45,801 nucleotides of DNA from Heterostelium multicystogenum. Taxonomy: Eukaryota; Evosea; Eumycetozoa; Acytosteliales; Acytosteliaceae. The notes beneath the pieces are model-generated. The model saw only the letters and a list, made by a program, of their open reading frames with translations. It ran no database searches and had not been told where the DNA came from. Made by a program: the position numbers and the translations under genes. Where the stretch lies: positions 1 to 45,801 of the forward strand of contig RCNN01000014.1 of NCBI GenBank assembly GCA_003667245.1, in the 5' to 3' direction. Positions 15,862-45,801 of the stretch are shown piece after piece (position 1 is the first letter of the stretch; each line of letters opens with the position of its first letter).

Positions 15862-15873
15862 GAGGGCAGGGCC

Positions 15874-16509: not shown

Positions 16510-16534
16510 ATCTCCAGGCTCACACCGGCCAAAT

Positions 16535-16623: not shown

Positions 16624-16675
16624 TGTAATCTTCAGCGTGTCCAAAATATATAAAAAACAATACAGGTCCCTTGCG

Positions 16676-18060: not shown

Positions 18061-18786
18061 GCATCAACGCGTGTTCCAGGTCAAAACGCTCGGCGTTCGG
18101 GCAATCCAGGCGCTGATACAAACTGGCCCGGCCAGGTAATCGGCGGCGCTGGCATTGCCCAGCTCCAGCACGCGTTCGGCATCCACCAGAGCGGCCAGGT
18201 GGTCGTCGTTGGACAGGTGCAACTGGCGCAGATTACGCGACAGCCGTTGCAGGATCGATCGCGGCTCGGCGGTGTGCAGGTGGTCGGCCTGCAACTTGAG
18301 ATTGGGCCCGTACTGGCGGGTCAGCAGGTCGCGGCAATCGTTGGGGTACAGGCGTCGGCCGCCGCAGGGGTCGAGCAGGTGATCGGCGCCCGGCACCCGC
18401 AACAGGAAGTGCCCCGGGAAGTTGACGCCCACCAGCGGAATGTCCAGGCGCCGCGCCAGCTCCAGGGCAATCAGCCCGAGAGCCAGCGGCTGCCCGCGTT
18501 TACGCTTCAACACCTTGTCCAGCAGCGCGGCGGCGGGGCGCAGCGGGTGTGGTCATCCTGGGCGAACCCCAGGTCGTTCATGCGCCGCAGCAACGGTTGT
18601 CCGAGTTCATCCGCCGGCAGCATCGGCATGCTGAGGCTGACCAATTGCTGCAATACCTTGAAGTCCTGCAGGATGGCCAAGGGGTCCACCGCCGGGTCGT
18701 GCTCGGCCGCCAATCCACAGCGCGGCTTCAAACAGCGCGGGCGGTGACCGTTCCAGGCAGGCAAAAAAGGCGTCGAGGGGCTTCAT
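17984..18786 (-). CDS. SirB1/transglutaminase-like family protein (frameshifted)
   Basis: SirB1-family protein (transglutaminase-like core followed by tetratricopeptide-like helices), about 267 residues. It runs from ATG at 18786 (MKPLDAFFACLERSPPALFE) to a stop at 17984-17986. The central motif RKRGQPLALGLIALELARRL and GVNFPGHFLLRV matches the family. The ending EDPIQRLRLTERLGHLPPN is in another frame, and other indels lie near 18730, 18545 and 18130. Proteins of this family are common in gamma-proteobacteria and often poorly defined; I assign no reaction. It overlaps the 3' end of the transporter by about 77 bases in the convergent direction. Confidence 0.8.
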
Positions 18787-24347: not shown

Positions 24348-24524
24348 GGTGCGTTACCGCCTGATAAGAACATGCAGTCATTGACGACCGGTGTCGGGAT
24401 TAGTTCGCGTTTCCTGACCACCGGCCATTCGCTCGCTGAGGTTTTCACAAGGTCCGTTTTCCTCAAGTGCTGTACAGCAAGGGGCGTGCCGTACAGCAAT
24501 CTGCCTGCCATCAAAATTTCCCCT

Positions 24525-24610
24525 GTGGGAGCGGCTTGCTCGCGAATGCGGTGTGTCAGCCAATGATTGCTCAGCTGAACGACCGCTTTCGCGAGCAAGC
24601 CCGCTCCCAC
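24525..24610. repeat. REPIN with a one-base deletion in the left arm
   Basis: Left arm GTGGGAGCGGCTTGCTCGCG lacks one G of the GCGGG run; the right arm is full-length and ends at 24610. It lies between the DUF3509 gene and the end of sdaC. Confidence 0.9.
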
Positions 24611-24648
24611 AGTGGGTGGGTGGTGTTTTTTGAGTTCGGTGATCCGTT

Positions 24649-28678: not shown

Positions 28679-29089
28679 ATGCAAATCCAAGTCAATAGCG
28701 ATAACCATATTGAAAGCAGCATCCGACTGGAGGAGTGGGTACGTACCACCATTGAGAGCACGCTCGAACGTTACGAAGAAGATCTGACCCGCGTCGAGGT
28801 TTACCTGCGGGACGAGAACGGTGACAAGCCCGGCCCACACGATCTGAGTTGCCGACTGGAAGCACGGCCAAAAGGCCATCAACCGCTTTCGGTCCTCCAT
28901 AAAGCCGATACGCTGGAACAGGCGATCGATGGCGCAGCGACCAAGCTGGAGCATGCCCTGGAGCATCTGTACGGCAAACTGCGCGGCAAACCACGCGCCG
29001 CGGGTCAAAGCCTGCCCAATACCAAGGCCGACGAGGCCGAGCTAGAAGAGGAATTCCTGGAAAACGAACAGGCTGCGCTTAACGGCTGA
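28679..29089 (+). CDS. HPF/RaiA-family ribosome-associated protein
   Basis: Intact, 136 residues. It has the S30AE/HPF/YfiA fold pattern: MQIQVNSDNHIESSIRLEEW, then TTIESTLERYEEDLTRVEVY, LRDENGDKPGPHDLSCRLEA and TLEQAIDGAATKLEHALEHL. Short members of this family bind the 30S subunit and inactivate ribosomes in stationary phase or stress. The acidic tail (ADEAELEEEFLENEQ) goes beyond the core domain. It is distinct from the rpoN-linked hpf, so it is probably a second paralogue. A strong terminator follows. It is the last clearly core gene before the mobile region. Confidence 0.88.
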   Translation: MQIQVNSDNHIESSIRLEEWVRTTIESTLERYEEDLTRVEVYLRDENGDKPGPHDLSCRLEARPKGHQPLSVLHKADTLEQAIDGAATKLEHALEHLYGKLRGKPRAAGQSLPNTKADEAELEEEFLENEQAALNG

Positions 29090-29191
29090 TAGCTGATACT
29101 TTTTTCAACCCCACTGAAAACGGGCCTGCAGATGTTATTCCCCCCAGCAGGGAATACATAGTTCAGCTACCTAAGAAATCTGATGCTGACA

Positions 29192-29218
29192 ACACCCCTC
29201 TTTCGAGGGGTGTTTTTT
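29192..29218 (+). terminator. Intrinsic terminator after the HPF/RaiA-like gene
   Basis: The stem ACACCCCTC/GAGGGGTGT with a TTTC loop is followed by TTTTT. It ends the ribosome-associated gene and lies close to the presumed left edge of the mobile element. Confidence 0.9.
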
Positions 29219-29407
29219 GTTCTATTGTTGTGAAAGCCATACCTTGATCTAGCATGTTATGCATCTGTCGATTTGTGTGCCATCGCTAGAGTGGCCTCAC
29301 CAAAAACTGATTGCTCTTCTGCCCGGCGCCGAGTCAATGTTGCTCAGTCTTCATATGTTCTATGTCGTCAGCGCGCTTGGCGCCTTGCAATTTTATCGAA
29401 TGGAACG

Positions 29408-29611
29408 ATGCATATGCCTACCGGCTATTATCTGGCGCGCCTCGAAACCCATCGGTACATCTGGATCGGCGCACTTGGCGATACACCATCTGCCGCCGGC
29501 GTCGATATTGACCTCGTATCCAGTTTTTGCTTGGTGCATCGCGGCAAGGCGCTCATTGTGGTCAGCGAGTCGCATCAGGTCGTTGAAAAAGGCAACAAAT
29601 GGACGATTTGA
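29408..29611 (+). CDS. Possible 67-residue ORF upstream of gmtY
   Basis: Open frame from ATG 29408 (MHMPTGYYLARLETHRYIWI) to SHQVVEKGNKWTI, 31 bases before gmtY in the same direction. I recognise no domain. The upstream sequence has only a weak GGAA as a ribosome site, and the frame is also open further upstream from 29273. It could be a small leader gene of the mobile element or chance. The stretch 29219-29641 must also hold the element's left border and the gmtY promoter, neither of which I can pin down. Confidence 0.3.
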   Translation: MHMPTGYYLARLETHRYIWIGALGDTPSAAGVDIDLVSSFCLVHRGKALIVVSESHQVVEKGNKWTI

Positions 29612-29641
29612 CCTTCACACGCCACAGATAGAGCACGCATC

Positions 29642-31039
29642 ATGTTTGTGACCGTAAAGACTCGCGTCTACTCAGATGCCACCGGTGCCTACACAGAGCT
29701 TCCAGCTTTGTTGACTTCCTTCGGTGTGCTGGAACCACTGCTCGATTACTGCCTTCACCGCAGTCACGACCGAAGTCTGACATGGATGACAAAGGTCGCG
29801 CGCTCGGTACGAATGTTTCTCGAATACCTGCAAAGCAACCCCGCCGAGCGCGACACTTATCAACTGTTTCAGAACTTTGCTCAGCGCCTCTACACAGGGA
29901 CGTTCGACCGCGAAACCGGAATCGATCCTAGCGGGTTGTGCTGGGCTCCGCGATCGCCTCAGGATGCCTCTCACATTATTACCCACTTGACCGACTTCTT
30001 CGAATGGCTCGGCGAGATGCGCCCCGAGGCGTCCAAGGTGAATCCCCGCTATGCGGGTGGCGCCTTCGACCGACAGACCGATGAGACTGCATACCAGTAT
30101 CGGCGCTGCAAGGCATTTCTTGGGCATACGTGGGCTGCCAACGTATCGCTGGAAACCGGACACCGAGTGCGTAGTCGACGTCTCCCCAAAGTTGAAAAAG
30201 GCGAACCACCGGCATTTCCGGAGGAGCGTTTCGAGGAGCTTCTGATGAGGGGATTTCGTACAGCCGGCCGCTACGATTACCGTGGCATGCTCATCACATT
30301 GCTGCAGCACGGCGCCGGCTTCCGCGAATCCGAGCCTTTCCACCTCTATATCCCCGACGTGTTCCCCGATCCCGCGAATCCAGGCCAAGCCAAGGTCCTC
30401 ATTCACCATCCAAGCCACGGTGCAGCTCCCAATGATTGGTATGACGAACGAGGAAAGCCCCGAAAAGGTAATCGAGCGGAATACCTTGCGAATGAGTTCG
30501 GCTTGGCGCCGCGTACCGATTTACTTGATCGCCGTCATGCCGGGTGGAAAGGCGGTATACACGACGCCCCCTATTACAAGCAGGCCTATTGGTTCCTACC
30601 GGAGTATGGCGAGTGGTTTCAGCACCTCTGGCGACGCTACCTTGACCAAGTTGTGCGCTTTGAGCGCGACCACCCTTTCGCTTTCATCAATCTGTACCGG
30701 GCTCCCGTCGCCGCGATGTATACGCTGACTCAATACAACAAGGCTCATGCTACGGCATGCGAGCGTATAGGCCTTACAGTGGGCAAGGCACTGGGAACAA
30801 CACCGCATGGACATCGGCACGCCTATGGCCGGCGACTGCGTTCCGCAGGCGTGGATAAAACATTGATTCGGCGCTTTATGCATCACACCTCATTGGAAAG
30901 TCAGGAGGTTTATACGCAAGCTACGACCCGAGAGGTCTTGGCTGAACTCTCAGCGGCCGCGCACCGACTGCGTGAGAAAAAAATTGAGAGCGGTCCTGCG
31001 ACGACTGAGTTGATGAGCGCGATGAGCGTCTGTGAATAG
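29642..31039 (+). CDS. gmtY: GmtY, tyrosine recombinase of a gamma-mobile-trio
   Basis: Site-specific tyrosine recombinase, 465 residues and intact. The catalytic set is visible in the C-terminal half: Arg228 in QHGAGFRESEP, His389 and Arg392 in TPHGHRHAYGRR, His414/415 in FMHHTSLESQ and the nucleophile Tyr424 in EVYTQ. The N-terminal half (LTWMTKVARSVRMFLEYLQS, HIITHLTDFFEWLGEM) is the core-binding domain. It is the first of three genes in one tight operon (gap of 8 bases to the next). This layout and length match GmtY of the gamma-mobile-trio elements, which carry variable cargo. AT content is visibly higher than in the preceding genes, consistent with transfer. Confidence 0.8.
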   Translation: MFVTVKTRVYSDATGAYTELPALLTSFGVLEPLLDYCLHRSHDRSLTWMTKVARSVRMFLEYLQSNPAERDTYQLFQNFAQRLYTGTFDRETGIDPSGLCWAPRSPQDASHIITHLTDFFEWLGEMRPEASKVNPRYAGGAFDRQTDETAYQYRRCKAFLGHTWAANVSLETGHRVRSRRLPKVEKGEPPAFPEERFEELLMRGFRTAGRYDYRGMLITLLQHGAGFRESEPFHLYIPDVFPDPANPGQAKVLIHHPSHGAAPNDWYDERGKPRKGNRAEYLANEFGLAPRTDLLDRRHAGWKGGIHDAPYYKQAYWFLPEYGEWFQHLWRRYLDQVVRFERDHPFAFINLYRAPVAAMYTLTQYNKAHATACERIGLTVGKALGTTPHGHRHAYGRRLRSAGVDKTLIRRFMHHTSLESQEVYTQATTREVLAELSAAAHRLREKKIESGPATTELMSAMSVCE

Positions 31040-31047
31040 GAAAGCCA

Positions 31048-33638
31048 ATGTCTCAAGAAAAGAAAACGATCGAGTCATCTGCATTCGAAATCACGGCACC
31101 AAAGAAGAAGGGAGTGACTCGCAAAAGTGACACGTCCCTTGGTTGGGTAGCGCGTGAATACCCTCAGCTTATTCCGTGGCAACGCTTGGCTGTGAAATGG
31201 TTGAAGGGCGAAGTGCGGGGAATGGCAAATCGGCTTACAGCGATGGCTATTTTTTTGGAACGTTACATTATCAGGCAAGGGCTGCCACTCGACCCCGCCG
31301 CATTCTTGAGCCGAGATACGATCCTGCCCGATTTTTATCGCACGGTATGCCCTGATTCGCTCGACGGTATCAACCACAACAACACTATTCATGCGTTCCT
31401 AAATTTCGTTTTGCTGCGCGACTTTAGCGAAACCTCTAATTACGGTCAGTTGGTGGTCTCACCGGCGTTCTACAACCCAGTGCCCCGTCTTTCTAGCAGT
31501 GCGATTCCAAAGCGGGACGAGAGCGTCCATTCGCCACTCCCCTACGGCTATATTGATGAACTGCGACAGATACTGGCGGCCGGCCCGCACTTCAAAGACT
31601 GGTATTGGGCGCAGAGCGCGATAGGTAGCGGGATCGGCAAATCGGGGATTTGTGCGCCTGACTGGTTTGAAGTCACGGAAGATCAGATCGACAAAAACGA
31701 CCCTGATTGCATTTGGCGTGTACGCCCGATACGGAATGACACTCGCTTGGAAATATGGAGTCCCGTCCGTTGGGTCGCCCTGTTAGTAAAGCTCATCTTG
31801 CCTCTGCGCACGTTCCAGGTTCGCATGCTCGATTCCGGAGAAGCAGACACCTGGCGTTTCTCAGCAGAGGGTTGGGCTTTAAATTCGAGCCCACTCGCGC
31901 AGGGCACCGAACGAAGGCCCTTGCAGCAGGGCGTGTTCCGAAAAAATAATCCACTAGCCGATGATGAGGCTGTTTCAACGATTTTGTACATCAGCACCAA
32001 CAAGACCACCGACACCTTAAAGTTCGGCCCTGATAAAGGCTACAACCTGCCATGGCTCTTTGGCGGACCGGTACATCAAGACGTCTTCTATTGGCTGGAG
32101 AAGCTGCGCAACTGGCAAGAGAAGTACAACCCCATCTCGCGGCGTACGCCTTGGACAGAACTTGACGGTCGCCATTTAAAGGTAAAGACCGACGTGCAAC
32201 TCGCCAGTTATGCTGACGCCTGCTTTCTCTTTCGGATGCCTGAAACAGCTGAGGGAGAGCACCATCTTCCACTCAAAGAAATGACATTAGCCCCTAGCTG
32301 GTACCGCCTGCTTGAAACCCTTCAACAGCGACTTGCGGCTAGGGGCGAAAGCCACCGCAACGGTACTCCAATTCTTTTTATTCCACCGGTGGAGCCCGGT
32401 GTCTATGCGTTGAAGACTTTATTCCCCCTACACAGCTTGCGCGTCTCCCTCATCACCGCTCTTGCCTTGGATGGGAAAGTACCTTTCCCCATACTCCAAA
32501 AGCTGGTCGGCCACAGCCGCCTGCTGATGACTGTCTACTACACAAAGCCTGGTGCGACGCGCATTCGCGACATACTGCTCGGTGCGGCAGAATCGCCTGG
32601 AGGCGAACAAGGAAGCGAGCATTCAGACGTTTTTGCTCGACACCGAGCACGGTGAGCTTCTACAGAATATTATCTGTAACAGCGTATCGAGCGTCGCGGC
32701 CGCCATCCCAGAGCATCCTGCCACCCGCAACCCGACGGGCTGGATGCCTCTGCATCACGGCCTTTGCATGGTTGGTGGGAACACAAGCGCATTAGAAGAA
32801 AACAGTACGGTCGATGGCTGCCACAACGGCGGGGTGAATATCGGGTCACCATCGGTCCCAAAATTCGCGCCCGTTCCAGGAGGCATTCGCAACTGTGTAC
32901 GTTGCCGCTGGTTCGTAACGGAACCACACTACCTGCCTGCACTCACTGCTCACTTCAACACACTCGCTTACCATTTCGACGAAGCGCGAAACACCTGCCT
33001 CGCGTCGGAAAAACGAACTTCAACATCTGAAAAAGCAAAAATTAGATGTTGAGGAAGTCGGCCAGCCCTTCACCCGAATGAACGACTATCGACAAGCTGA
33101 GCGTGTATGGGAAAAGTCAATGAAACGCTTCAGTGATCTCGCCGAAGACCTTGTCTCCTGCTGGAGACTCATTGAGCGTTGTAAAGCAGCGCTTGAAATC
33201 TCCCATGATAATTGTATGCAACTGATTGCTGTCGGCACGGTAGCGGAAGTCCATGTCACCTTCGAGGAAACAGAGTCCGAATTGCTCCAGCTCGCGGGCG
33301 TGTGTGAAGACGTTGAGGTCTATCCCGACCTCGAACCGGGCAAGGCTGTATTTCGCCGTAGTCAATTGCTTGATGCAGTACTTTATCGAGACGATATGGC
33401 GCCGGTATTCATGCTGTTAAGCGAAGAGGAGCAGCTCAAAGTGGGTAACGCCTTTCTGCGGCACCTGGCTCGGCAAATGAACCCGAAAAATCTGGCCCTG
33501 GGGAAGCGAGAAGTCATTCACCTGATAGATGCGGGCGCAAGTCTCAGCCAGCACTTCAACTTGGATCTCACTTCGTTGTTGCCCACGGCAGACTTTACCA
33601 GGTACTCCCAAGGGAAAGCACTTCTTCAAGAGAGATGA
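31048..33638 (+). CDS. gmtZ: GmtZ, large integrase-like protein of a gamma-mobile-trio (two frameshifts)
   Basis: Large recombinase-like protein of about 860 residues in three frames. The first 535 codons contain a tyrosine-recombinase-like C-terminal half: H462/R465 in PLHSLRVSL, H489 in KLVGHSRLL and Tyr497/498 in MTVYYTKPG. The usual first arginine region reads GSGIGKSGICAPDW, so Lys198 may stand where Arg is expected. A shift near 32600 leads to QNRLEANKEASIQTFLLDTE and GGIRNCVRCRWFVTEPHYL, a cysteine-pair segment seen in large phage-type integrases of this kind. A second shift near 33010 leads to the helical tail ending at 33638. It is probably one continuous protein, as in known GMTs. 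The smaller frames 32552-33052 and 33078-33638 should not be annotated separately. Confidence 0.75.
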
Positions 33639-33641
33639 AGC

Positions 33642-34304
33642 ATGAACGGAATAACCGACATCCATCCGGACGCGGTCCTAGAGTCGCTACTCGCGAAAGG
33701 CGGACGCTCGAACCGGAGGGCAAACCTGACAAAGATGCATGAGGTGTGCGGCAAGCAGAACGAGAGCGGCTCGCGGGAGTTTTCGTTGCCAGCAATCGGT
33801 CGTCTGATCGAAGCCGAGGGCATCATGAAAGGGCGCGCCCTCTACAATGCCCAATCCGCAGACTACCGGATACTTATTGAAGCTTGGGCGGCCTATGCCG
33901 GGCCGCCTGCTTCCAAACCAAAAAAGATGCTGGCAAGCCATGAGTACCTGATGCGCATCGGGGACCCAGCTATCCGCTCCATCATGCAGGCTATTATCTC
34001 AGAACGTGACACGCTCAAGGCGCAACTTAACGTCCTGAAGTCCACGACACGGTTAACCGTGGACCGGCGCCCCTTGGGTGCGACCATTTCGGTTGCGTCT
34101 GGAAAGCAGCGTGTGGCTGTGCTCACCCTGTCCGCACAACTGACCCCATCAGAACGCGATGCCTTGCAGAAGGCAGTGTCGGCCGAATACCTGGAAGAAC
34201 GTGACCTGCATGAAGGCAGCCACGGAGAGATCCTGAACGAGCGCGGCCGGACGGTGTTCGAGGTGGGCTTTGCCCGTGCAATCCGAAAGGTACTAGGCGA
34301 ATGA
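33642..34304 (+). CDS. gmtX: GmtX, third protein of a gamma-mobile-trio
   Basis: Intact, 220 residues, starting four bases after the gmtZ stop (MNGITDIHPDAVLESLLAKG). The first 90 residues look like a DNA-binding accessory domain: RRANLTKMHEVCGKQNESGS, then SLPAIGRLIEAEGIMKGRAL, a pattern similar to KfrA-like and to TnpC-like helper proteins of Tn554-type recombinase trios. A predicted helix (AIISERDTLKAQLNVLKSTT) in the middle suits a short coiled coil. No catalytic motif is visible. Assignment rests on position in the trio, size and this accessory-like N-terminus; the biochemical role is unknown. Confidence 0.65.
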   Translation: MNGITDIHPDAVLESLLAKGGRSNRRANLTKMHEVCGKQNESGSREFSLPAIGRLIEAEGIMKGRALYNAQSADYRILIEAWAAYAGPPASKPKKMLASHEYLMRIGDPAIRSIMQAIISERDTLKAQLNVLKSTTRLTVDRRPLGATISVASGKQRVAVLTLSAQLTPSERDALQKAVSAEYLEERDLHEGSHGEILNERGRTVFEVGFARAIRKVLGE

Positions 34305-34367
34305 CCCTCGACGGCCAACCCCACAGTCAATGCGAAGTGGTGCGGTGCAAAATTACGGACCCGATAA

Positions 34368-34398
34368 TGAAAAAAAGCGCCGATGTTACCGCGGCGCT
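34368..34398 (-). terminator. Minus-strand intrinsic terminator
   Basis: The stem AGCGCCG/CGGCGCT (34376-34398) is preceded by a run of A's on the plus strand, which reads as a T-run in leftward transcripts. It would end transcripts coming from the frm operon. Confidence 0.6.
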
Positions 34399-34452
34399 AG
34401 GGAGCGATGCATAAGCTTAAGTCACAACTCAACATCCTAAAGGCCAACACGC

Positions 34453-34592
34453 TGTTGATGCTGACCCCAGATTGACCCAATTGCCGACGCGAGAATGACC
34501 CATCTCCAAAATGGCAACGATCGATCACAGCCAATGATTCACAACGATTCAGACTGGTTCAATGAAGTCTCGGCTACTGGGTCAACTCGACA
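34453..34592. mobile_element. 140-bp element with IS21-like ends
   Basis: The left end reads TGTTGATGCTGACCCCAGA and the right end, in reverse complement, TGTCGAGTTGACCCAGTAG. Internal TGACCC repeats (ATTGACCC, AATGACCC) lie near the left end, as at IS21-family termini. There is no transposase. It looks like a miniature non-autonomous element or the fused ends of a deleted IS21-type element. It ends exactly where the fghA similarity stops. Confidence 0.55.
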
Positions 34593-34746
34593 TCGGCGCC
34601 AACAAATACAGTACCGGCACCTTGCCATGCTGCGCCTGCGGAGGCAGATAGACACCGACTTTGATCGTTCAGCCTAGCGTCGTGGACTCATGCTGATAGA
34701 CGTCCTGCCAACCATCAAATCTGGCGTGATGTTCGACGAGTTCCAT
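34593..34746 (-). pseudogene. fghA remnant, S-formylglutathione hydrolase N-terminus
   Basis: From ATG 34746, with an AGGAGAA ribosome site, the leftward frame reads MELVEHHARFDGWQDVYQHE and then, after an in-frame TGA, TIKVGVYLPPQAQHGKVPVL before it stops at the 140-bp element. This is the conserved N-terminus of S-formylglutathione hydrolase, the second enzyme of glutathione-dependent formaldehyde oxidation. Only about 50 of 280 residues remain, so the gene is broken and not an assembly indel. Position at the end of the frm operon supports the identity. Confidence 0.75.
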
Positions 34747-34749
34747 GCT

Positions 34750-34950
34750 GTTCTCCTGCATTCGGTCCTGAAAGCGAGCTGCAATATGCCGCGGGGTTCT
34801 GAATCAACAGATGCGGGCGCGCGCGCATTTCAGCCACGGCTGCATCGCGATCGGCGCAGGCGGGCATGCCGTACACGATGGCGGTTGGGGCGAGTTGTGT
34901 GGTCGTCGTATTATGTTGGCCGGCTCTTTCATAAGGACCTCATTTCTCAT
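34750..34950 (-). other. Unassigned stretch between the VOC gene and fghA remnant
   Basis: Leftward sequence from ATG 34935 (MKEPANI) reads, in a second frame, AIVYGMPACADRDAAVAEMR and ARPHLLIQNPAAYCSSLSG, up to the fghA start. It looks somewhat protein-like but I do not recognise it and it needs a frameshift. The rest to 35113 includes a hairpin (CCCGCAG/CTGCGGG, 34980-35012) and no gene. Confidence 0.3.
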
Positions 34951-35113
34951 AGGTTAAAAAACACGCTTGAAGGCAAATGCCCGCAGCCGTGCGTTGCGCA
35001 CATCGCTGCGGGCCAATCTTCATGAGCAGGCATCGCCCTACACGGCCTGTCTAATAGGCTCGTCGTATCGATGCTTGTGCTGGCCAGTTCAAAACGCCCA
35101 CAGCTTCCTCGCT

Positions 35114-35512
35114 TCAGACGAAGGTGTATGAGCAGACCTTGTTACCCGCCGGATCACGCAGATAGGCCGCATAGGCACCTGGCAGGTGACCACGCGGGCC
35201 AGGCTGGCCCTCGTCGGTGCCGCCTGCGGTAAGGCCGGCAGCATGGAAGGCATCCACTTCGGCGGGAGTGGCGGCTGCAAAGCCGATCGTCACGCCGTTG
35301 CTGGAGGGCGCTTCACCATTGCCCGGGCGAGCGATGATGAAAGCTGGCTTTTCGCGACCGAAAAGCACCCAGCCGTCGCCAAAAGGACCAAGGTTCTTGA
35401 TGCCGAGAGCACCCAGAGCGGCGTCGTAGAACGCGGCCGACTTCTGAACGTCTGCGGCGCCGATAAAGACGTGCGAAAAGATGCCGTCACCGGAAATAAC
35501 AGGAGTGGACAT
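35114..35512 (-). CDS. VOC family (glyoxalase/dioxygenase fold) protein
   Basis: Intact, 132 residues. It has the vicinal oxygen chelate fold: FSHVFIGAADVQKSAAFYDA at the N-terminus, GWVLFGREKPAFIIARPG and the closing YAAYLRDPAGNKVCSYTF. The metal ligands seem to be His14 (FSHVFIG) and a Glu-like position, but the C-terminal ligand is Asp/Cys-rich and unclear. It lies 51 bases after frmA, in the same direction. VOC proteins are commonly co-located with frmA in Pseudomonas and may handle a glutathione adduct. The reaction is unknown. Confidence 0.85.
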   Translation of the reverse strand: MSTPVISGDGIFSHVFIGAADVQKSAAFYDAALGALGIKNLGPFGDGWVLFGREKPAFIIARPGNGEAPSSNGVTIGFAAATPAEVDAFHAAGLTAGGTDEGQPGPRGHLPGAYAAYLRDPAGNKVCSYTFV

Positions 35513-35563
35513 GATAATTCCTTAATTTGTGGTGTTGAGAGTGGATAGTTTGTGATCGCTGAA

Positions 35564-36678
<1,115 letters not shown>

Positions 36679-36733
36679 GATGTCGCTTCCTTTACTAACT
36701 AAATTTTCCCTCGCCGAGGGCACCCTGATGCCT

Positions 36734-37003
36734 CTACCGCAGATAGTAGCGGACGATAGAGATGGTTTCGTCAATGGATTTGCTCTGCGAATCGCTCCTG
36801 ATTTCGCTACTGGGAAACTCTTCCCGCAGATAGCTCTCCAGAACCGTCGCCATCAATCCGTTGCCTGCCCCACGAACGGCCGCAAGCGGCTGAAGAATCG
36901 CAGCGCAATCAGCACCTGCATCGAGCGCTCGCTCAAGGGTCGCTACCTGACCTTTTATGCGCCTAATGCGCGTCAATGCTTTGGGGTATTCGGAGCGGAG
37001 CAT
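36734..37003 (-). CDS. frmR: FrmR/RcnR-family repressor (CsoR superfamily)
   Basis: Intact, 89 residues, all-helical CsoR/RcnR/FrmR superfamily. It keeps the family core [20 protein letters not shown] and the sensing cysteine Cys33 in [20 protein letters not shown]. In E. coli FrmR the formaldehyde crosslink joins this cysteine to the N-terminal proline (Pro2), and His60 is conserved; here residue 2 is Leu and the His60 equivalent is Tyr58 ([10 protein letters not shown]). Even so, linkage 55 bases before frmA makes control of formaldehyde genes the natural reading. A different start in a shifted frame cannot be excluded. Confidence 0.85.
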
Positions 37004-37125
37004 TTTGGGGTGTTGCTAGTTTGGGCAACCACGCCTCCCTTGCATATGGATTTTTGTTACGATTTTTATAATTCCACCATCTGGAATAATTCACGACCAG
37101 CGAAACTGGCCATTAGGCGTACGTC

Positions 37126-38013
37126 ATGAACAAGGTAATCGAACTACTGCGCATCTTTCGGGCGGCAGCCGAAAGCCGCAGTTTTTCGCGATGCGGCCGT
37201 CCGGCTGAGGACTTCCCGCAAGGCGTCACGCGTGCCATCCAGCAGTTGGAGCAACATTACGGCGAGTTGTTATTTCATCGAAGCACGCGCCAGGTGCGCA
37301 TCACCTCCTTTGGTGAGGGCCTGTTAGACCAGGTGCGCCCGGCATTGGATCGGTTCGAGGAACTATGGCGCACACCTGGGGCCGACCAGAAGGCGCCGCT
37401 GTCCGGCACGGTTTGCATCACCGCACCGCACAGTTTGGGCACCAGAGCAGTAACTACCTGCACTGGAACGCGTGGCCTCACGTCATCCCGGTATCACTCT
37501 GGATGTGCGCCTGTCCGATCGCCCTTAGCAATTCGGTTGACGAAGGGATTGACGTTGGGATCAGGGTTGGATTCATGCGCGATAGCCGCTTCGTCGCGCG
37601 CAAAGCAGCCAACATGAGACTCCCAATTGTTGCTGCTCCGCGCCTGATCAAGAAAGTGGGCGTACCTGAGAATATCGATGCGCTAAGCCGCCTGCCGATC
37701 ACCGTGGCCTTGGATATCAATACCGGCCGTCCATGGCCTTGGCACTTCAAGGCGGGACGCCAGTGGACACCCGCCGCTCCCACTCTCGTCGCCGACAATG
37801 CCGACATGGAAATGGGCGCCGCGTTGGCCGGGATCGGCTTCGCGCAACTAGCGGACTACATGGCTGCCCCATATATTGCCAGCGGGGAGCTCGTGCAAGT
37901 GCTGGACAAACGAAGAACCTCCGGCATGGGGGGTGTACGTCTATCGGCCTCAGCGCGTCCCCACTCCGGGAAGGGTTCGAGCGGTATTTGATGAAAATGC
38001 TGGCCGCCGTTAG
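37126..38013 (+). CDS. LysR-family regulator divergent from frmR (frameshifted)
   Basis: LysR-type regulator, about 296 residues. ATG 37126: MNKVIELLRIFRAAAESRSF. After an extra T and a missing C (37180-37215) the helix-turn-helix continues with QGVTRAIQQLEQHYGELLFH. The effector domain follows in another frame (SNSVDEGIDVGIRVGFMRDS, IVAAPRLIKKVGVPENIDAL, NADMEMGAALAGIGFAQLAD) and, after a further shift near 37915, ends WGVYVYRPQRVPTPGRVRAV to TAG 38011-38013. The gene is divergent from frmR with about 120 bp between starts, rich in A/T. It may regulate the frm genes or be unrelated cargo. Confidence 0.83.
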
Positions 38014-38061
38014 ATCGTTGCCAACTTTGCGCTGACGCGCCGCAAGGTGCTATAGGATTTA

Positions 38062-39295
38062 CACCGGGTTCTACCCCATTTCCACGGACGGGTTTAATAG
38101 AGCTGAAAACTTTAAATCCTGGCGAGCTACTCTACGACGCATTCTCGGATTATGGAGCCGCTCGATGTATCTGAACACATCATTCCTTGCTGCATCGAGT
38201 GTTTGATATTCCACGCGGTAAACCCACTCGCGTTTGAGAACGCCAAATAAGCTCTCGCAGGCGGCATTGTCGCCACAATGGCCCACTGCGCTCATCGAGC
38301 ACGCCAGGCCAATTGCTCGTCAGGTAATGCTGGTAGTCGTCGCTTCGAAATTGACCGCCTCTGTCGGAATGCAGGATCATCGGATCGCTCTCCTGGCGCT
38401 GCCAGACCGCCATCTTCACGGCCCGAATGACCATTTGCCGGTCTTGTCGGTGATACATCGACCACCCCACAACCCGTTGATCGAACAAATCCAGCACGAC
38501 ACACAAATACAGCTTGCCTTCACCCGTCTAGATCTCGGAGATGTCGGTGACCCACTTGGTCTCCGGTTCTAGGGCCATAAAGTCCCGCTCCAGTAGGTTG
38601 CGTACAACTGGCGGCGTCACTGACGGCTGAGCGCTTACCACGTCGTTTGGGGCGCGGCCAGCCTTTCAAGTCATTGGTTGCCATCAGGCGCGCCACCCGG
38701 TTCAGGCTAGCTGATTCACCTTCATCGACCAGATCTTCGTGCATGCGGCAAGCTCCCAACGTACCCCGGCTGTCTTCATGAAGCTCTCGGATACGCCAAG
38801 CAACCTCTCATTGTCCAACTGCCTCTGGCTAGGCAAGCGCTTGCTCCAATCGTAGTAACCGCTGGCCGACACTCGTAGGCAACGGCACATCAAGCGAATC
38901 GGAAACTCATCGCGACAACGCTAGATCACCTGATACCTCAAGATGATCCCTTGGCAAAGAACGTCGCCGCTTCTCGCAAAAAAATCCCTTCCTTCTTCAC
39001 TCGGACCAGTTCGCGTTTTAGCCGTGCCAGCTCCTCGTCCCGCGGCGCTCCGGTGCCGCTGAAGGCTGCTTTACCCTGTGCTTGGGCTTCGCGTTTCCAA
39101 GCGGGCTAGCAAGCTGTCCCGAATCCCCAGTTCGCGTGCCACCTGGGCACAACTGACGCCCGGCTGGCTCGCCTGCTCAACTGCGCCACGTTTGAACTCG
39201 TCACTTGAACTTCTTTCCCTTTGACATGAACACTCCTCATTGACCTCGATCGGCCTTTTTGTAAGTGTCCGTGAAAACGGGGGTAGAACCCGGTG
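38062..39295 (-). mobile_element. Degraded IS3-family insertion sequence
   Basis: About 1.23 kb bounded by inverted repeats: CACCGGGTTCTACCCC (left, 38062-38077) and its complement GGGGTAGAACCCGGTG (right, 39280-39295); the similarity extends further inward to about 27 bp. The transposase reads leftward. No target duplication is obvious at the flanks. It separates the formaldehyde cluster from the catabolic cluster. The next 200 bases (39296-39497) hold no gene I recognise. Confidence 0.85.
38071..39227 (-). pseudogene. IS3-family transposase (OrfAB), disrupted
   Basis: Leftward from ATG 39227 (AGGAGTG site) the OrfA part shows a helix-turn-helix, SDEFKRGAVEQASQPGVSCA then ARELGIRDSLLAR. A leucine-zipper-like segment follows (DEELARLKRELVRVKKEGIF). 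OrfB begins with [19 protein letters not shown] and carries the DDE core: CVVLDLFDQRVVGWSMYHR, MILHSDRGGQFRSDDYQHYL and NAACESLFGVLKREWVYRVE. Besides the normal programmed shift between OrfA and OrfB, several indels and an in-frame amber codon at 38528-38530 (just before [11 protein letters not shown]) break it, so it is unlikely to be active. Confidence 0.85.
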
Positions 39296-39497
39296 GCGCG
39301 GATCGCCATGTTTAGGCGAGGTGCGTCCAAAAAGCGCCGAAAGGCGAATATTCGCGCTGGAATCGGTAAAACACCCGCTGATTGAGGCCAGACAAAAGGC
39401 ATCGCCAAGCCTGAGAGGCTGAAAAATTTCAAACTTGGCGGGTTGGGGCAGTTAGGGCTGAATTTTTCAAAGGCCTGTTAAATACATGAAGGCGCAC

Positions 39498-40771
39498 TCA
39501 CAACAGCGAGATAGGGTAACTGATGAACAAGCGGTTGTCGTCAAAGTCGCTTGTCGATCTATCGCGCCAGCTGTGACGGGCGCTTGAGTTTTTCAAGACA
39601 ACGCTCAGATCTTTTAAAGTGCCGGCTTGCCACGACATAACTGATAATGAGTTCGCGCTCAGACTCCGTACCATTGTCGATACCGATATTTTTCACCCTG
39701 ACATTGTTCGCCCCGAATGAAACGATTTGAAACTGTAAGGCCAGGCACACCCATCTGAACGAAGTCCAGATCGTAACGAAGTTGCCAGGAGCGCTCGTCT
39801 TCACGGTCGAAGCTGGAGTTGAGGTTATCATTGCCAAACTCCCCCCGCCACTGGTCCCACCGGTTGCGCCGACACGCATCCAGGAACTGTTGCCTTCAAC
39901 TTTCTGCAAGCCAACGTAAAACGTGTGCACCCCATACTTGGCAGAGAACAAACCAGTGAATGTTTTATTGTCCAGATCACCGGCACGCGCACCTCCGTCT
40001 TCTTTGCCAAAGAATACCCCCATATTGCTGCCCAGAAATCCAGTCTCCGACCGGTTGGGTATGAGTCAGATTGATGAACTGCTGCTGGTAGATATCCTTG
40101 AGTTGCGCATTCCATAGGCCAATCATCGTGCGATTCTGATTGAAATAGTACTCGCCTCCCAAATAGTTTGAAGCGATCAGATATCGCGCCCCATAAGAGA
40201 GGTCACTGTCCCATATCGACGGAATTGCGCAGGCTGGTAGCACGAATCTGACCGCCATAAAGCGTCAGGTTGTCAATTTCCTGCGAAGTAAACGTGGCGC
40301 CCTCGTAGGTCTGGCATTTTGGCGCGACCAGGGTCAGAAACGTAGGACCGGCAGGTTCATTACCGTGTCGCCGATCTTGAAGACTGTCTTCGAATACTTG
40401 ATCCTTGGCAACAGGATCGATACGGCTGAGATCGTCGGGAGAACCCGGCGGTAGCAGTTGCGTACCACTGGAGCCCGGACTACCGTCGAGTTTGATACCT
40501 AGCTGACCTATCACATCCAGACCAAATCCGACCGGCCCGGATGTATAGCCGGAGCGGACATCCAAGGTAAAAACTGAATCCATTCCGCCGCCTGTGCCTG
40601 GGCAACATTATTGCCTAGAAAAATTACGATTCTGGTTAAAGTTCTTGAACGTCAGGTCGACCTTGGCGTCATCGAAAAAACCTTCAGCCCTGGCTGAGGA
40701 CTGACGACCAATAAAGCACCTAGCATTAACGAACGGAAGACAAACTTTTCCTCAAGCACACTCAAGATCAT
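39498..40771 (-). CDS. OprD-family outer-membrane porin (frameshifted)
   Basis: OprD-type porin, about 420 residues. From ATG 40771 come an atypical signal-like start and AEGFFDDAKVDLTFKNFNQN, the OprD N-terminal pattern. Then VFTLDVRSGYTSGPVGFGLD, LTLYGGQIRATSLRN, YGARYLIASNYLGGEYYFNQ, FTGLFSAKYGVHTFYVGLQK and the last strands (ELIISYVVASRH, then DNRLFISYPISLL) to TGA 39498. At least five indels. OprD homologues take up specific carboxylates or aromatic acids. It is divergent from the AraC gene at 41194 and shares the accessory cluster with a catabolic regulator and transporter, so it probably imports the same substrate. Confidence 0.8.
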
Positions 40772-41193
40772 CGAACTTTCCCTAATCAACTTGAAGACTT
40801 ATGGATTTTCATTTAACCCACTTATCTAATTTTATTATTTTAGACGCCTGCATCTGGTCATTTCAGATTGAACAGTCACTCGCGTTAGGTAATAGCCAAA
40901 ACTTTGCAAGGTATTTTATTTTCAGAGGCCATCGGCAAGTTAGAGTTTACACGAGCAAGTATCGATATTGGCAGCAACACCGTCACTGGGGCCGTCTTTA
41001 TAAAACCGCCCCTCATTAAAATTGATGCATCCAAAGCAGTAGACGGTCCCTAGAATAGAAGCACGATACCCTTCACAAAAATGGACAAAAACGACAATCG
41101 TCGAGACTTTTACAGCAAATCGGATAGGCATTGGCCAACGCCCAAATTCTTCGTTAAGGTAGAAAGCAGGTACTCTTCAAGACTATAAATATA
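40772..41193. other. Divergent promoter region of oprD-like and araC-like genes
   Basis: About 420 bp with visibly low GC and no credible ORF. It lies between the starts of two divergent genes, so it should hold both promoters and the AraC binding sites. I see no obvious direct repeat to name. Confidence 0.5.
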
Positions 41194-42088
41194 ATGAAAC
41201 AAGATCCCTACTACTCCCTCTATGGCGAGTCGACACCCCCGGTCTGGCATGACTCGCTGCATGTCGAATCGATATCAGTACGCTCCGGCAACTACAACTG
41301 GGAGATCGCCGCCATCGACACGACGGACTGCTGCAAATGCTATACCTACAAAGTGGCGAAGGCGAAGTGCTGCTGGACAACCAGGAGGGTCCAGGTCAAG
41401 GCCCCGTGTTTGCTATTCATCCCTGAGCAAATCGTCCATGGCTTCGCCTGGAACGGACGTGTTGACGGGCATGTGAATCACCGCCGCCCAGCACTCGCTG
41501 GAAAACATCGTGCAGGTGCTCTCCCCCGGCCTGTTGGCCGCTGATCCAGAAGCCCTACATTGTCACCCTGCCGCACTGGGCGCCAAGCCGATAACCCGCT
41601 GGAGCCACTGTATCGCGCGTTGTACGAGGAATATCACTACCGTGCCCGGGAGCACGTTGCGTGCAGCATGTCATTACTGTTCACACTGGTGATCCAGATG
41701 CTACGCCTGTGCGAAACACCGACGGAATGCCTGCGCACCATCACGACCGCGCGCAGCCAGCAGATCATTGCCTTTCGCGAACTGGTGAATCGCCACTTTC
41801 GCGAACACCTGTCGCTCAATGACTACGCCAGTCGCCTGGGTATCACAGCCGTCACTCTGGGGCGACTGTGCCATGAGCAACTGGGAATGAATGACGCCGA
41901 TGACCCTACTGAACGCCCGGCTGATCCTCGAGGCCAAGCGCTATCTGGCCCATTCATCCCAGAGCGTTAAACAGATCGCGCACGGCCTGGGCTATCTCGA
42001 TGTCGGTTATTTCAGCCGATTCTTTCGCAAACACACCCAGCTCAGCCCCAGTGAGTTTCGTCTGCAGGCCCATGCCTCGCGCCGGTGA
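41194..42088 (+). CDS. AraC-family regulator (frameshifted)
   Basis: AraC-type regulator of about 298 residues. The N-terminal cupin-like part starts MKQDPYYSLYGESTPPVWHD and, across shifts near 41325 and 41470, includes GPCLLFIPEQIVHGFAWNG. The C-terminal DNA-binding domain is ELVNRHFREHLSLNDYASRL followed by LGITAVTLGRLCHEQLGM, then a break near 41885 and AHGLGYLDVGYFSRFFRKHT, the second helix-turn-helix. This layout is that of PobR/HpaA-like activators of aromatic catabolism. A divergent OprD gene and the SDR/MFS/FAD genes are the likely targets. The effector is unknown. Confidence 0.82.
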
Positions 42089-42223
42089 ACGCTCAACCTC
42101 AGTGCGCTCGGCCAGGTGATCCGTCGCGAGGCCGACGGTCGACTGGTGGGCGACTTCGTCGACGGTGAAGGTTTTCTCAATGCCGTGCGTGCGTCGAAGT
42201 ACTCGGCGATTTTCCAGTCGTAG
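42089..42223 (+). pseudogene. Unidentified truncated coding remnant
   Basis: Just after the AraC stop, the open frame reads TLNLSALGQVIRREADGRLV and GDFVDGEGFLNAVRASKYSA to a stop at 42221-42223, with no start codon. It looks like the C-terminal end of a lost gene. I cannot name the family. The remaining gap to 42414 shows nothing further. Confidence 0.35.
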
Positions 42224-42414
42224 ACACAGAGCGCAGCGATATCGGTGGCATCACTGGTTTTGCCCGAAAAGTGTCGAGCATTGAGCGTTTTGTCCTATCT
42301 TGCGCCGCTCATCTCTGCCTGACAGGGTGCCAGCAGTCGATGAGCAGTCTGGAGGTGGTGGCCTCGAGCTGAATCTTCGCAGCGCTGACAGGGATTGAGT
42401 CATCAGCGTCGCTA

Positions 42415-43163
42415 TTACCGCCGTATATACCCACCATCCGCATTGATGCAGGCTCCTGTGATCATTTGATGCCGCGCTGCTGGCCAAAAACGACACCACC
42501 CGCGCAAATTTCAATCGGCTGACCCAAGCGTCCGATGGGGCTGTTTTTCCACAATAGCGGCCAAAAGGGACTTCGGCAGCCTGCTCAATAGTGGCGTTTC
42601 TACATACCCCGGCGAAATGCAATTGGCACGAATGCCTTGTTGTGCGTAGGTCAAGGCGACGCTGCGCGTGAGGTTCACAACGCCAGCCTTCGAAGCCGAG
42701 TAAGCATGGACTATTGGCCTGAACCTACATGGGCGAGGATGGAAGCCATATTAATGATTGCTCCGCCATTGCCTTGCAACATCCTTTGGACCGCGTACTG
42801 ATTACACAGCGCCACGCCCGTTAGATTGATGTCGATCACCCCGTTGCAGGCAGTAAGGTCTAACTCATGAATAGGGCTTTTGGCTTCGGGGATGCCGGCA
42901 TTTGCAACCAATACATCCAGGTGGCCGAAATGCTCCACCGCCGAGCTCATTAAATTCCCCACACTGTCCGAGTCAGTGACATCGGTAAGCACAAAAAAAG
43001 CTTCAAATCCGAGGCTCGCGGCCACCTCCCTTGCGGCATCGTCAATGTCGCCGAGTATGACCTTTGCCCCTTCTTCCACCAGCAAACGCGCGGAATAGCT
43101 GCACCAATTCCCGAAGCGGCGCCCGTGATAACCACAACTTCCCTTATGTCTCTGGACGCTCAT
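42415..43163 (-). CDS. SDR-family oxidoreductase (frameshifted)
   Basis: Classical short-chain dehydrogenase, about 249 residues. From ATG 43163 (MSVQRHK) the NAD(P)-binding motif TGAASGIGAAI is split by small shifts. Then come LLVEEGAKVILGDIDDAARE, LDVLVANAGIPEAKSPIHEL with the NAG motif, GGAIINMASILAHVG (serine) and, after a shift near 42715, AYSASKAGVVNLTRSVALTY (Tyr/Lys). The usual end, TGACINADGGYIRR in the third frame, stops at 42415. It follows the MFS gene in the same direction and probably acts on an intermediate of the compound imported by the cluster. Confidence 0.85.
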
Positions 43164-43201
43164 GATAAAGCTACCTTCTCAGCTAGTTTCAATTGTTGCT
43201 G

Positions 43202-44535
43202 TCAATCGAAGAGGCGTTGGCACTGGCAATATATCGCCAGCGCGGCAACGCCGGCGGGGGATCAGCATCGACGTCGCGCAGATTTCGGCCAGCGACCAAC
43301 CGAGGCTGAGCATCTGCGCGCCAGCGAATGCGCTCAAAACAGCACCGACGCCGGCCGACACCGCTCATCCAACTGGCACCCGTGGCGCGGGCTTGAGTGG
43401 GGTAATAGCTGGCCGCCATTGCGTTCATGCCAACGGACACACCGTTGAGCCCGAAGCCGACCAGACAGGCCACTGCGCACAGCAGAACAAAAATGGCCAG
43501 TGGACTGGCCGATGGCGTAGATCGCCAGGCCGCAGCCCAGAAACGCCAGTGTCAAAACGTTACGATGCCCCAGCGATTTCCATCGCCCAGCCCACAAAAA
43601 ATTGCGCCTGCAGGGCCACGATCTGAAAGATGGCGGTGACCACGGCCGCGTCCGCCACGCTGTATTGGCCGACCTCTTTTACCAGCATTCCGGTAACCAG
43701 CCAAACTAAAGAGGTTAAAACCATAAATAGGGCAATGATGTAGCCGATCCACAACATCAGTGTGCCGAACAGGTAGCGCCGCGACAGCACCAACCAATGG
43801 CTCCAGCCGCCGTTTTGCCAGCCAGGAGTATCAGAAAAGTTGAATCAGCTGTGGCCAGGTCAGGCGCCAGTCGCTTCATGATGGCGCGAATACTTTCGGG
43901 CGACGCACGCTGCGACACGAGGAAGGTGACAGACTCCGGTAGTTTGAAATATAGATTGGCAGCACCAGCAACGGCAAGATACCACCCGCTATCAACCAAC
44001 TTTGCCATCCCATATTCGGGATCATCCAGGCACTGGCGAAACCGCCCACCGCCGCCCCTAACGAGAAACCGCAGAATGCAATAGTGATCAGGAACGAACG
44101 GCTGCGTGCCGGTGCATACTCACTGACTAGGATGCTTGCGTTCGCATGGCTGCGCCCCAGGCCAATGCCGGTCAAAAAGCGCAAAATAACCAAGGTTTGC
44201 ACATCAGGGGCGAAGGCTGTAGCGATGGTCAGCATCCCAAACAAGCAGACACTGCATAGCAGAACGATCCTTCGGCCATACCGATCAGCCAGCGGCCCGC
44301 AGTCAACGCACCGGCCACCAACCCGATCAAACGCGGCACTGAGCACCGGACCCAACGCCTGAGCCCCCAAACCCCACTCCGTTTTCAACTGCGGCGCTAC
44401 AAAGCCCATGATGGCAACGTCGAAACCATCAAGGGCGATGATCAAAAAGCCAAAGAATACAACCCATTTCTGAAAGCGACCCACCGGGTGAGCATCGATC
44501 CACTCACGCACATCAATCGATTTTTGCTGGTCCAT
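43202..44535 (-). CDS. MFS transporter, aromatic acid:H+ symporter type (frameshifted)
   Basis: Major facilitator transporter of the PcaK/AAHS branch, about 445 residues. The start at ATG 44535 has a GAGGGAC site (MDQQKSIDVREWIDAHPVGR). Segment 1 has IIALDGFDVAIMGFVAPQL, the mark of the branch, followed by PLADRYGRRIVLL, RFLTGIGLGRSHANASILVS and SEYAPARSRSFLITIAFCGF. The second half is in several frames (YLFGTLMLWIGYIIALFMVL, NVLTLAFLGCGLAIYAIGQS, GLNGVSVGMNAMAASYYPTQ, ARATGASWMSGVGR). An upstream ATG 44571 is less likely. The stop is near 43202, 39 bases before the SDR start. It would import an aromatic carboxylate. Confidence 0.83.
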
Positions 44536-44584
44536 CGAATGTCCCTCATTTTTATTATTGTGCTTACTCAACCGTGTATGTCGC

Positions 44585-44923
44585 TCATTTTGAAAGGTTC
44601 AGGCTGGCGAAGTGCACCGGTCTGATAATGCGTGTTTCCTGAGCCACGACCAGATGGCGGGTCGCCTGCAGATAGGCTTCGAATTCAGGATCGCTATCAC
44701 GGGCCAGGCTGCGCTTTTCCAGATCGTCGAGGCTGTCGTAGCCCCATAGATGAACGACCTGGTTCAGCGGGCCGATGTTGCTGGTGTAAAAACGCCAGCG
44801 CGCGCCCAAATGCTTGAGTAGCAGAGGCACCGCTAACTGGTCGAACGCTTGGAGAAATTCGGCCATGCCGCGGGGGGCGATGGTGTAAATGCGATGGTCG
44901 ACCACAGGTTTGGAGGCGATCAT
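44585..44923 (-). CDS. NIPSNAP family protein
   Basis: Intact, 112 residues from ATG 44923 ([20 protein letters not shown]). The dimeric alpha-beta barrel pattern is clear: [40 protein letters not shown] and [27 protein letters not shown] proteins often sit in aromatic or steroid degradation clusters; their reaction is usually unknown. The start overlaps the stop of the FAD-dependent gene (ATGA), so the two are coupled. It ends 50 bases before the MFS gene, giving an operon FAD enzyme-NIPSNAP-MFS-SDR. Confidence 0.88.
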
Positions 44924-45801
44924 GCCACTTGCTCCTTTTGGGTATTCTCTGCGCCCAGAGAGGTGCTGGCCAAATGGCGGCCGGTAATGAAAACCGAAGG
45001 TCATGATGGGTCCCAGGGTGATACCGGCGCCGGGGTAGTTTCCGCCCATGATACTGGCGCGGTCATTGCCCACCGCATAGAGCCCTGCTATTGGAAGATT
45101 CTGTTTTATCCAGTACTTCACCAACGACGCTGGTACGCAGGCCATCGAATGTGCCCAAGTCGCCCATCACCAGTTTTGACGGCGTAGTAAGGTCCGGCGC
45201 CGATCGGTGCCACACATGGATTTGGCTGATGCTGCAGGTCTCCCAGGTAGCGGTTGAACGCCGTCGCACCACGGCCGAACTCGTCGTCCCGCCCCTTGCT
45301 TGCACCCTGGTTGTAGCTCGCTACGGTTCGCTCAAGCCCTGGCCCGTCAATACCCGCCTTTAGCGCCAATTCAGCAAGCGTATGTCCTTTTAACAAGTAA
45401 CCATTGCGCAACAGTGCACCCAATGGCATGGGTGATGGTTTGGCAAAACCAAGCCCGTACTTGCCCAGCGTCCGGGCGTCGCACACCAGCCACATGGCTG
45501 TCTGATCGCGTGTCGCGTCGTTTTCGATCATCGCTGCGCCGACGTCATGATAAGAATTGGACTCATTGGTGAAGCGCCGCCCGGTTACATCGACACCAAT
45601 GATGCCGGGTTTATAGCGATCCAGAAGGTGCGGGAAGGCTGTGAATTGCCTCTTGCCCGTTGGCACTTTCGATACAGGCATCCAGGCCGCCGCCGCTTGC
45701 AGACAAATATCCACTTGGCCACCCACCGCTTCGGCCATTCGTGCACTGTCGCCCGTATTGCTGTCGGGTACCGGCGAAAAATGCTCTCCGCCGCGCTTTA
45801 C
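44920..45801 (-). CDS. FAD-dependent dehydrogenase/fumarate reductase-like flavoprotein (partial, frameshifted)
   Basis: Runs off the window's right edge, so only the C-terminal part (about 290 codons) is seen. It is a FAD_binding_2 flavoprotein like 3-ketosteroid dehydrogenases and fumarate reductase-like enzymes. Visible stretches are [50 protein letters not shown] followed by [10 protein letters not shown], and the C-terminal FAD motif [20 protein letters not shown] with [11 protein letters not shown]. Shifts lie near 45190, 45100 and 44985. Its stop (44920-44922) overlaps the NIPSNAP start. It probably introduces a double bond into a ring or acid substrate. Confidence 0.82.

Follow-up and report, generated by a model that had tools for sequence, protein, structure and literature searches.

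The 45,801 nt contig RCNN01000014.1, deposited within the Heterostelium multicystogenum assembly GCA_003667245.1 and called the window here at its full length, contains a gamma-mobile-trio (GMT) element whose three genes, gmtY, gmtZ and gmtX, lie in that order on one strand, downstream of an interrupted intrinsic terminator of a host gene (Table 1). GMT islands, reportedly described by Mahata and colleagues in Nat Microbiol in 2024, correspond to the families NF040693, NF047926 and NF040692. The assembly, 528 contigs totalling 29.7 Mb, includes Pseudomonas contigs, and its contig C511 is 83–89% identical to a Pseudomonas chromosome over long stretches; the assembly appears to be mixed, and the window to be bacterial DNA within it. 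Positions 1–45801, where the contig stops, read as Pseudomonas DNA with frequent single-base indels: 5.7 kb of neighbouring chromosome differs from Pseudomonas W4I3 by 32 indels, 26 of them of one base, and the formaldehyde (frm) block differs from a related plasmid by 20 indels over 3.3 kb.

Table 1. Features of the GMT element and its surroundings in the window
Feature	Position	Strand	Basis or remark
Host intrinsic terminator after hpf-like gene, split	29116..29134	+	Left arm 29116-29128, then central six bases CAGATG 29129-29134
Left terminal repeat of GMT, TTATTCCCCCC...ATACATAGTT	29135..29163	+	Aligned with 21 chosen relatives; empty-site homology ends at 29134
Element's own intrinsic terminator, inside left end	29191..29218	+	90.8% of cells paired in alignment A1; hairpin conserved
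ORF65, conserved small companion gene	29414..29611	+	Homologues near the trio in relatives
gmtY, tyrosine recombinase	29642..31039	+	NCBIfam NF040693, 524.9 bits (cut-off 340)
gmtZ, three frames (31048-32655, 32552-33052, 33078-33638)	31048..33638	+	NF047926, in pieces
gmtX	33642..34304	+	NCBIfam NF040692, 225 bits (cut-off 40)
Second gmtX fragment, 40 bases	34413..34452	+	90% to a stretch of G003:C93 inside the gmtX of L015 by coordinates
fghA relic (S-formylglutathione hydrolase), about 150 bases	34607..34757	-	90.7% to Aeromonas caviae plasmid fghA
Relic of the frm block's DUF3422 gene	34758..34934	-	Alignment to L092
VOC/glyoxalase-family gene	35114..35512	-	PF00903
frmA, S-(hydroxymethyl)glutathione dehydrogenase	35598..36680	-	PF00107, PF08240; more than one frame, end approximate
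frmR, formaldehyde repressor	36734..37015	-	NF008464, 130.5 bits, just below cut-off 133
LysR-type regulator, frame-shifted	37126..37991	+	
IS3-family transposase pieces	38180..39451	-	NF033516, PF13276, PF01527
OprD-family porin, in pieces	39559..40607	-	PF03573 for 39562-40065
Catabolic block, running off the contig	42711..45801	-	Short-chain dehydrogenase/reductase (SDR; best NCBIfam match ChcB2), aromatic-acid major facilitator superfamily (MFS) transporter, NIPSNAP, FAD-dependent oxidoreductase

An earlier note on this DNA, made from its letters alone, had named the trio a GMT, and profile searches bear this out, along with the gene coordinates, the gaps of 8 and 3 bases between the genes and the GmtY catalytic residues R228, H389, R392 and Y424. 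All three proteins pass their family cut-offs, the first GmtZ frame doing so alone (623.2 bits against a cut-off of 600, profile positions 1–485 of NF047926). The second and third frames cover positions 483–621 and 633–784 of the 784, so that the pieces jointly span 1–621 and 633–784, an end-to-end match in three frames. Scores of this size exclude chance as the source of the matches. The best non-GMT recombinase model for GmtY, of the XerA type, reached 27.9 bits, far below its NF040693 score, and it is the GMT families, rather than another recombinase trio, that the three proteins match. The operon proposed in the earlier note is thus real in its genes, their order and their spacing, but its middle gene is not a single open frame here. 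As the contig is full of small indels, we read the gmtZ frame breaks as most likely sequencing errors, with real decay a lesser possibility; gmtZ as a true pseudogene was set aside against that background, though not disproved. A PADLOC search with GmtY, the first GmtZ frame and GmtX as queries returned no match, and neither did a distant DNA search of complete E. coli genomes for GMT-like sequences with window positions 29642–33600.

The left border of the element can be fixed to the base. The hpf-like gene (PF02482) lies within positions 28679–29134, a stretch with a match in 140 of the 149 genomes of the genus of W4I3, and the hairpin GGGCCTGC...GCAGGCCC was present in 29 of the 30 hpf loci fetched from these 140 genomes. 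In the two nearest relatives, L161 (97% identity) and L162 (95%), the hairpin is whole and reads ...GAAAACGGGCCTGCAGATGCAGGCCCGTTTT..., the bases of 29116–29134 running on into the right arm CAGGCCCGTTTT. At the same place the window reads ...GAAAACGGGCCTGCAGATG, followed by TTATTCCCCCC. Because both relatives are uninterrupted here, the element starts at 29135, in the loop of the terminator hairpin, and the exact border, 29134/29135, falls inside an intrinsic terminator. Three near relatives, compared over about 20 kb each, align with the window up to 29130–29134, and nothing of 29135–45801 aligns; the hpf site of W4I3 (L047) is also empty. Everything from 29135 to the end of the contig is absent from the hpf site of these relatives and is therefore inserted DNA relative to them. 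Comparison with strains lacking the insertion, which the earlier note had proposed for finding both borders, thus delivered the left one exactly, while the right end is not in the window. The single hpf locus without the hairpin among the 30 (L181, in genome G185 of another Pseudomonas) carries the degenerate relic of another GMT, in which 67 bases of a left end are fused to 51 bases of gmtX, each at 88% identity.

Related elements, collected through a GmtY search of GTDB genomes that gave 37 loci, with plasmid loci added separately, show what the window shows on one side only: imperfect inverted terminal repeats, TACATAGTT and AACTATGTA at the two ends. Upstream of gmtY stands the left end, TTATTCCCCCC...ATACATAGTT and then a terminator hairpin, which was found with at most 4 mismatches in 25 of the 37 loci. 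An alignment of left ends (A1; the window and 21 relatives, its 22 rows hand-chosen from the loci with a left end) has 20 invariant columns out of 103. The right end of the relatives reads AACTATGTAC..TTAGGGTATAAGTC, with a repeat of the type GTATAAGTC, and at up to 6 mismatches on the plus strand the pattern occurs in 21 of the 37 loci, once in each; the match in L013 has 6 mismatches and sits at a contig end. Elements delimited in this way measure 5.1–9.8 kb (leaving aside L011, L013 and L029, whose ends are doubtful), and the one on an IncC plasmid 13.6 kb; several hold little besides the trio and small open reading frames (ORFs). Searched with the pattern of this clade, plasmids of Halomonas (L108), P. 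antarctica (L106) and P. syringae (L113) gave no convincing left end; the right end of the P. syringae element is exact. Locus L110 has a left end and no right end within 15 kb. One further candidate, H128, matched only through an insertion-sequence stretch and was not used.

Five elements, including that of the window, can be compared with an empty site, and in all five the left junction, defined as the last base matching the empty site, lies 3.0–3.5 bases past the axis of the hairpin: 3.0 for the window against L161, 3.5 for L015 against L117, 3.0 for L009 against L132, 3.0 for L008 against L152 and 3.5 for L107 against L114. At the right junction, bases that are not native to the site stand between the conserved GTC of the element and the native arm, 7 of them in L015 and 5 in L009. 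About 4 bases differ in L008, as judged by eye, since L152 aligns with L008 up to the junction on the left and only from base 152 on the right. The right junction of L107 also differs from the native loop, with the element end too loosely fixed for a count. The arrangement in which the central bases of the target stay on the left and foreign bases appear on the right is clear in L015 and L009, and less countable in L008 and L107. L107, the Shewanella IncC plasmid, has a GmtY with only 34% identity to that of the window, and an element on a Vibrio alginolyticus plasmid (GmtY 35% identical) also lies between terminator-like arms; as both of these distant elements fit, the rule is not confined to one clade.

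The host arms at the two ends of the elements are complementary, as scored in 22 junction pairs, 18 from loci of the chromosomal collection, which an earlier run had used, and four from plasmids. Left out were L011 (right match with 9 mismatches), L012, L014, L021, L023 and L024, where a right match was lacking, and L013 and L019, which reach contig ends and have no host flank; L009 and L004 were admitted despite 7 mismatches at the left and right end, respectively, and L029 and L112 were kept though they fail. The mean score was 10.6, against 5.9 for shuffled pairs and a maximum of 8.1 in 5000 shuffles. For 17 of the 22 pairs, at most 5 of 500 positions drawn at random from that locus scored as high.

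The element also brings a terminator of its own. The hairpin within its left end (A1 columns 60–78, 22 left ends) has a level of pairing reached by 1 of 500 shuffles, and its 9 cells changed on both sides are matched by none of 500, while sliding the hairpin partners against each other lowers pairing to 45–63%. Two other counts lend no support, namely 2 double-change pairs (reached by 306 of 500 shuffles) and 5 further pair types (491 of 500), and the RNAalifold covariation term is about zero; much of the stem is invariant across the left ends. By eye, the IncC element has a different hairpin and a T run at the same place. This hairpin would take over from the host terminator, which is broken by the insertion.

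Between this hairpin and gmtY lies ORF65, which had no match in Pfam. Among the 47 loci searched for it, homologues stand upstream of gmtY in four Pseudomonas loci (L008, L012, L017 and L113) and downstream of gmtX in L003, L010, L019, L027, L038, L110 and L112, so that this small gene switches sides of the trio between elements. Against the four upstream homologues, the window copy has nonsynonymous divergence (dN) of 0.12–0.13 and synonymous divergence (dS) of 0.80–1.15. A separate ORF of 101 residues, taken from L111 and likewise without a Pfam match, has matches directly upstream of gmtY in 14 other loci.

Taken together, our data are consistent with a model, to which we give a probability of roughly 0.85, in which the landing site of a GMT in a Pseudomonas was the intrinsic terminator of an hpf-like gene, and GMT recombinases target axes of dyad symmetry that are mostly those of terminators. 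Most likely, the crossover made by GmtY and GmtZ would be short and would be centred on the symmetry axis of an inverted repeat, which in most cases is an intrinsic terminator. The central 6–7 bases of the target would remain at the left end, and bases carried from elsewhere, probably from beside the left end at the previous site, would land at the right end. Insertion would split the host terminator, and for this reason the element would keep its own, 56 bases inside its left end. Judging from the comparisons, landing mid-hairpin in terminators and bringing a replacement seem to be common to this element and many relatives. The trio, the left border, the end repeats, the terminator arms, the axis offset and the foreign right-junction bases of the relatives come from sequence comparison; from these we infer which protein would cut, what the recombination intermediate would be and what GmtX and ORF65 would contribute. 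Landing in terminators would be a simple reason for the tolerance of these islands, and an unusual target choice for tyrosine recombinases. If the terminator rule is fixed, GMT borders could be found by computer in any genome and cargo separated from neighbouring genes, and the history from donor to target may be readable from the right-end bases.

Several observations weigh against this model. Five of the 22 junction pairs miss the 5-in-500 level: L029 (455 of 500) and L112 (231 of 500) have no arm complementarity, the score of L034 is reached at 22 of 500 random positions, and L007 (15 of 500) and L030 (108 of 500) pair well only crosswise. L004 was kept partly for its flank, and omitting it leaves 16 of 21. 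The left repeat is absent at up to 4 mismatches from 12 of the 37 loci, and 8 of the 25 loci that have it yielded no usable junction pair. The first right end came to light in a search for sequence complementary to the left host flank; later ones were set by pattern. Counted genome-wide, that pattern is not specific: across 30 genomes at up to 3 mismatches it had 23 matches (at most one mismatch in 13 of these), and the reversed control had 24, so that the case for the right end rests on its position relative to the trio and on the flanks. Searches of the window for the right-end consensus and for the expected right terminator arm gave nothing above control, and pattern matches in the whole assembly were no more frequent than in the control. 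Lastly, not every target looks like a terminator: L027 and L038, from two species, carry a GMT in the same palindrome, CAACATGTTG, which looks like part of a coding sequence.

These last two elements bear on what is recognized, for they lie in that palindrome in opposite orientations; its use in both orientations points to symmetry rather than termination as the signal. A bolder version of the model, which we hold only tentatively and at somewhat less than even odds, is that GMT recombinases recognize DNA structure or symmetry instead of sequence, so that they could land in any hairpin resembling a terminator and cut it around its axis, the element supplying a replacement terminator that preserves termination. 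GMTs would then be general terminator-hopping elements, for which every proteobacterial genome or plasmid offers a very large number of sites. Somewhat less probable, yet a serious competitor, is that the recombinase binds a loose sequence that is present in terminators by coincidence, an A-tract and then C-rich bases. The 32 left flanks do favour C at -10 (0.74 bits) and A at -18 to -16 (0.46–0.62 bits), but no column rises above 0.74 bits, and sites with no run of three or more A in 25 bases were used (L010, L027, L038, L107 and L105). The constant axis distance in five of five empty sites and the opposite orientations of L027 and L038 also speak against it. Random integration followed by loss of insertions elsewhere would also enrich terminators, which by reasoning alone are safe places that selection would favour; however, selection for safety would not set the junction 3.0–3.5 bases past the axis in every empty site, and it leaves the use of the L027/L038 palindrome unexplained; we regard this explanation as very unlikely.

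The pair L007 and L030 consists of two GMT copies of 5406 bases, 180 kb apart on one contig of Paraburkholderia caffeinitolerans. Their arms are exchanged: paired crosswise they score 14.0 and 10.5, and in the assembled order only 7.5 and 6.0. CTTTGG, with which the left junction of site b ends, also opens the right junction pairing with site a, which would follow if b was the source of the copy at a. Judged from the sequences, the exchange could be a misassembly of two like copies or a recombination between them, and the picture resembles a circle carrying one copy that recombined into the other, or a misassembly. In a Microvirga genome (G020, L069), the flank of a right-end match, GGCCGCGTTTT, complements the left flank of L023, AAAACGCGGCC.

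The DNA after gmtX includes frm genes, an OprD porin and a catabolic block, and the earlier note had taken the formaldehyde and catabolic genes for a metabolic cargo of unusual type. Both frm and OprD belong to the inserted DNA: none of three close relatives without the trio holds the frm or OprD genes of the window in about 18 kb downstream of the site. They may travel with the element, but its right end lies beyond the contig, and a metabolic cargo is only partly supported. The formaldehyde operon is incomplete, with fghA only a relic, and the block shares about 90% identity with a plasmid of Aeromonas caviae; in eight Pseudomonas relatives, frmA matches elsewhere reach 71–73%, with a further one of 78% in G106. 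The porin piece at 40206–40607 had no NCBIfam match and is joined to the porin by inference, and no gene is assigned to the stretch from about 41.2 to 42.7 kb, between the porin pieces and the catabolic block. In that block the SDR is of the cyclohexanecarboxylate type by its best NCBIfam match, and, since breaks or truncation affect the genes, all NCBIfam matches stay below their cut-offs.

An almost even possibility is that these genes are not GMT cargo, the element having lost its right end and the genes having arrived later through insertion sequences or plasmid-derived recombination. The second gmtX fragment, the fghA and DUF3422 relics and the IS3 transposase pieces after gmtX speak for this, as does size, since more than 11 kb follows gmtX here without a right end and most delimited relatives are shorter than that in total. 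On the other hand, all of this DNA is absent from the site in the three close relatives, and native DNA, taken up by contig C511, resumes about 3.5 kb downstream of the site in the coordinates of L191. It is very unlikely that the contig is a chimaera in which misassembly placed the downstream DNA next to the trio. The assembly is mixed and rich in indels, but the junction at 29134 coincides with the start of the left repeat in the aligned relatives, and at least the join there is for this reason real. The catabolic block was found at the site in none of the eight relatives searched, and parts of it elsewhere in only one (G185, at 70–80% identity).

GMTs are described as carriers of antiphage and antibacterial genes (PMC12039261, PMC12715929). 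In the delimited relatives we found the defence-like BovA (L008) and an NsnA/GmrSD-like protein (L005), a RelA/SpoT-domain protein (L015) and a small multidrug transporter (L016). A tblastn search of the 37 GmtY loci, within the DNA at hand for each, found neither frmA nor the VOC gene. A metabolic load is therefore unusual in this sample, as the earlier note had it, but not unique: the load of L018 from Vogesella, whose two ends are both defined, includes an M20 amidohydrolase and an MFS transporter, together with a regulator that is LysR-like by its sequence only (15023–18697). On a Serratia marcescens plasmid (L104, from annotation only), a haemagglutinin-type cluster stands between gmtY and an integrase-family gene adjoining gmtX, so that cargo may also lie inside the trio.

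With the GMT islands the element shares the three proteins, their order and strand, and the form of a mobile island with cargo; the ends, the terminator-axis target, the replacement terminator, the foreign right-junction bases and ORF65 are described here, and the cargo beside the trio is metabolic. A literature search by gene names and for terminator-targeting elements, covering titles and the beginnings of abstracts, found no report of the target rule, the defining GMT paper being outside its reach. Tn554 uses one preferred site, radC, unlike the GMTs studied here, and group IIC introns, which are tied to hairpin targets, use RNA, unlike a GMT. SE and Tn554 elements are described as obeying a similar 6-base rule (PMC10214605). 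In that account, SE elements resemble GMTs in having two tyrosine recombinases, imperfect terminal repeats, and central target bases on the left with donor bases on the right, but they are organized as intA-tfp-intB-srap and use few selected locations, whereas GMTs here use varied inverted repeats; the Tn554 family likewise has three genes (tnpA, tnpB and tnpC), a six-base footprint and imperfect inverted repeats (PMC10214605). GInts, as outlined in PMC5385486, are islands moved by several recombinase genes, like GMTs, but by four, ginABCD. Insertion sequences that target repetitive extragenic palindromic (REP) sequences are reported to be tied to hairpin or palindromic targets (PMC1525189), as GMTs are, but they use transposases, not a trio. 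Elsewhere in the window, repeats of about 90–120 bases at 12238–12363, 16534–16624 and 24524–24633 have many copies in the assembly and in relatives, and are probably REP-like.

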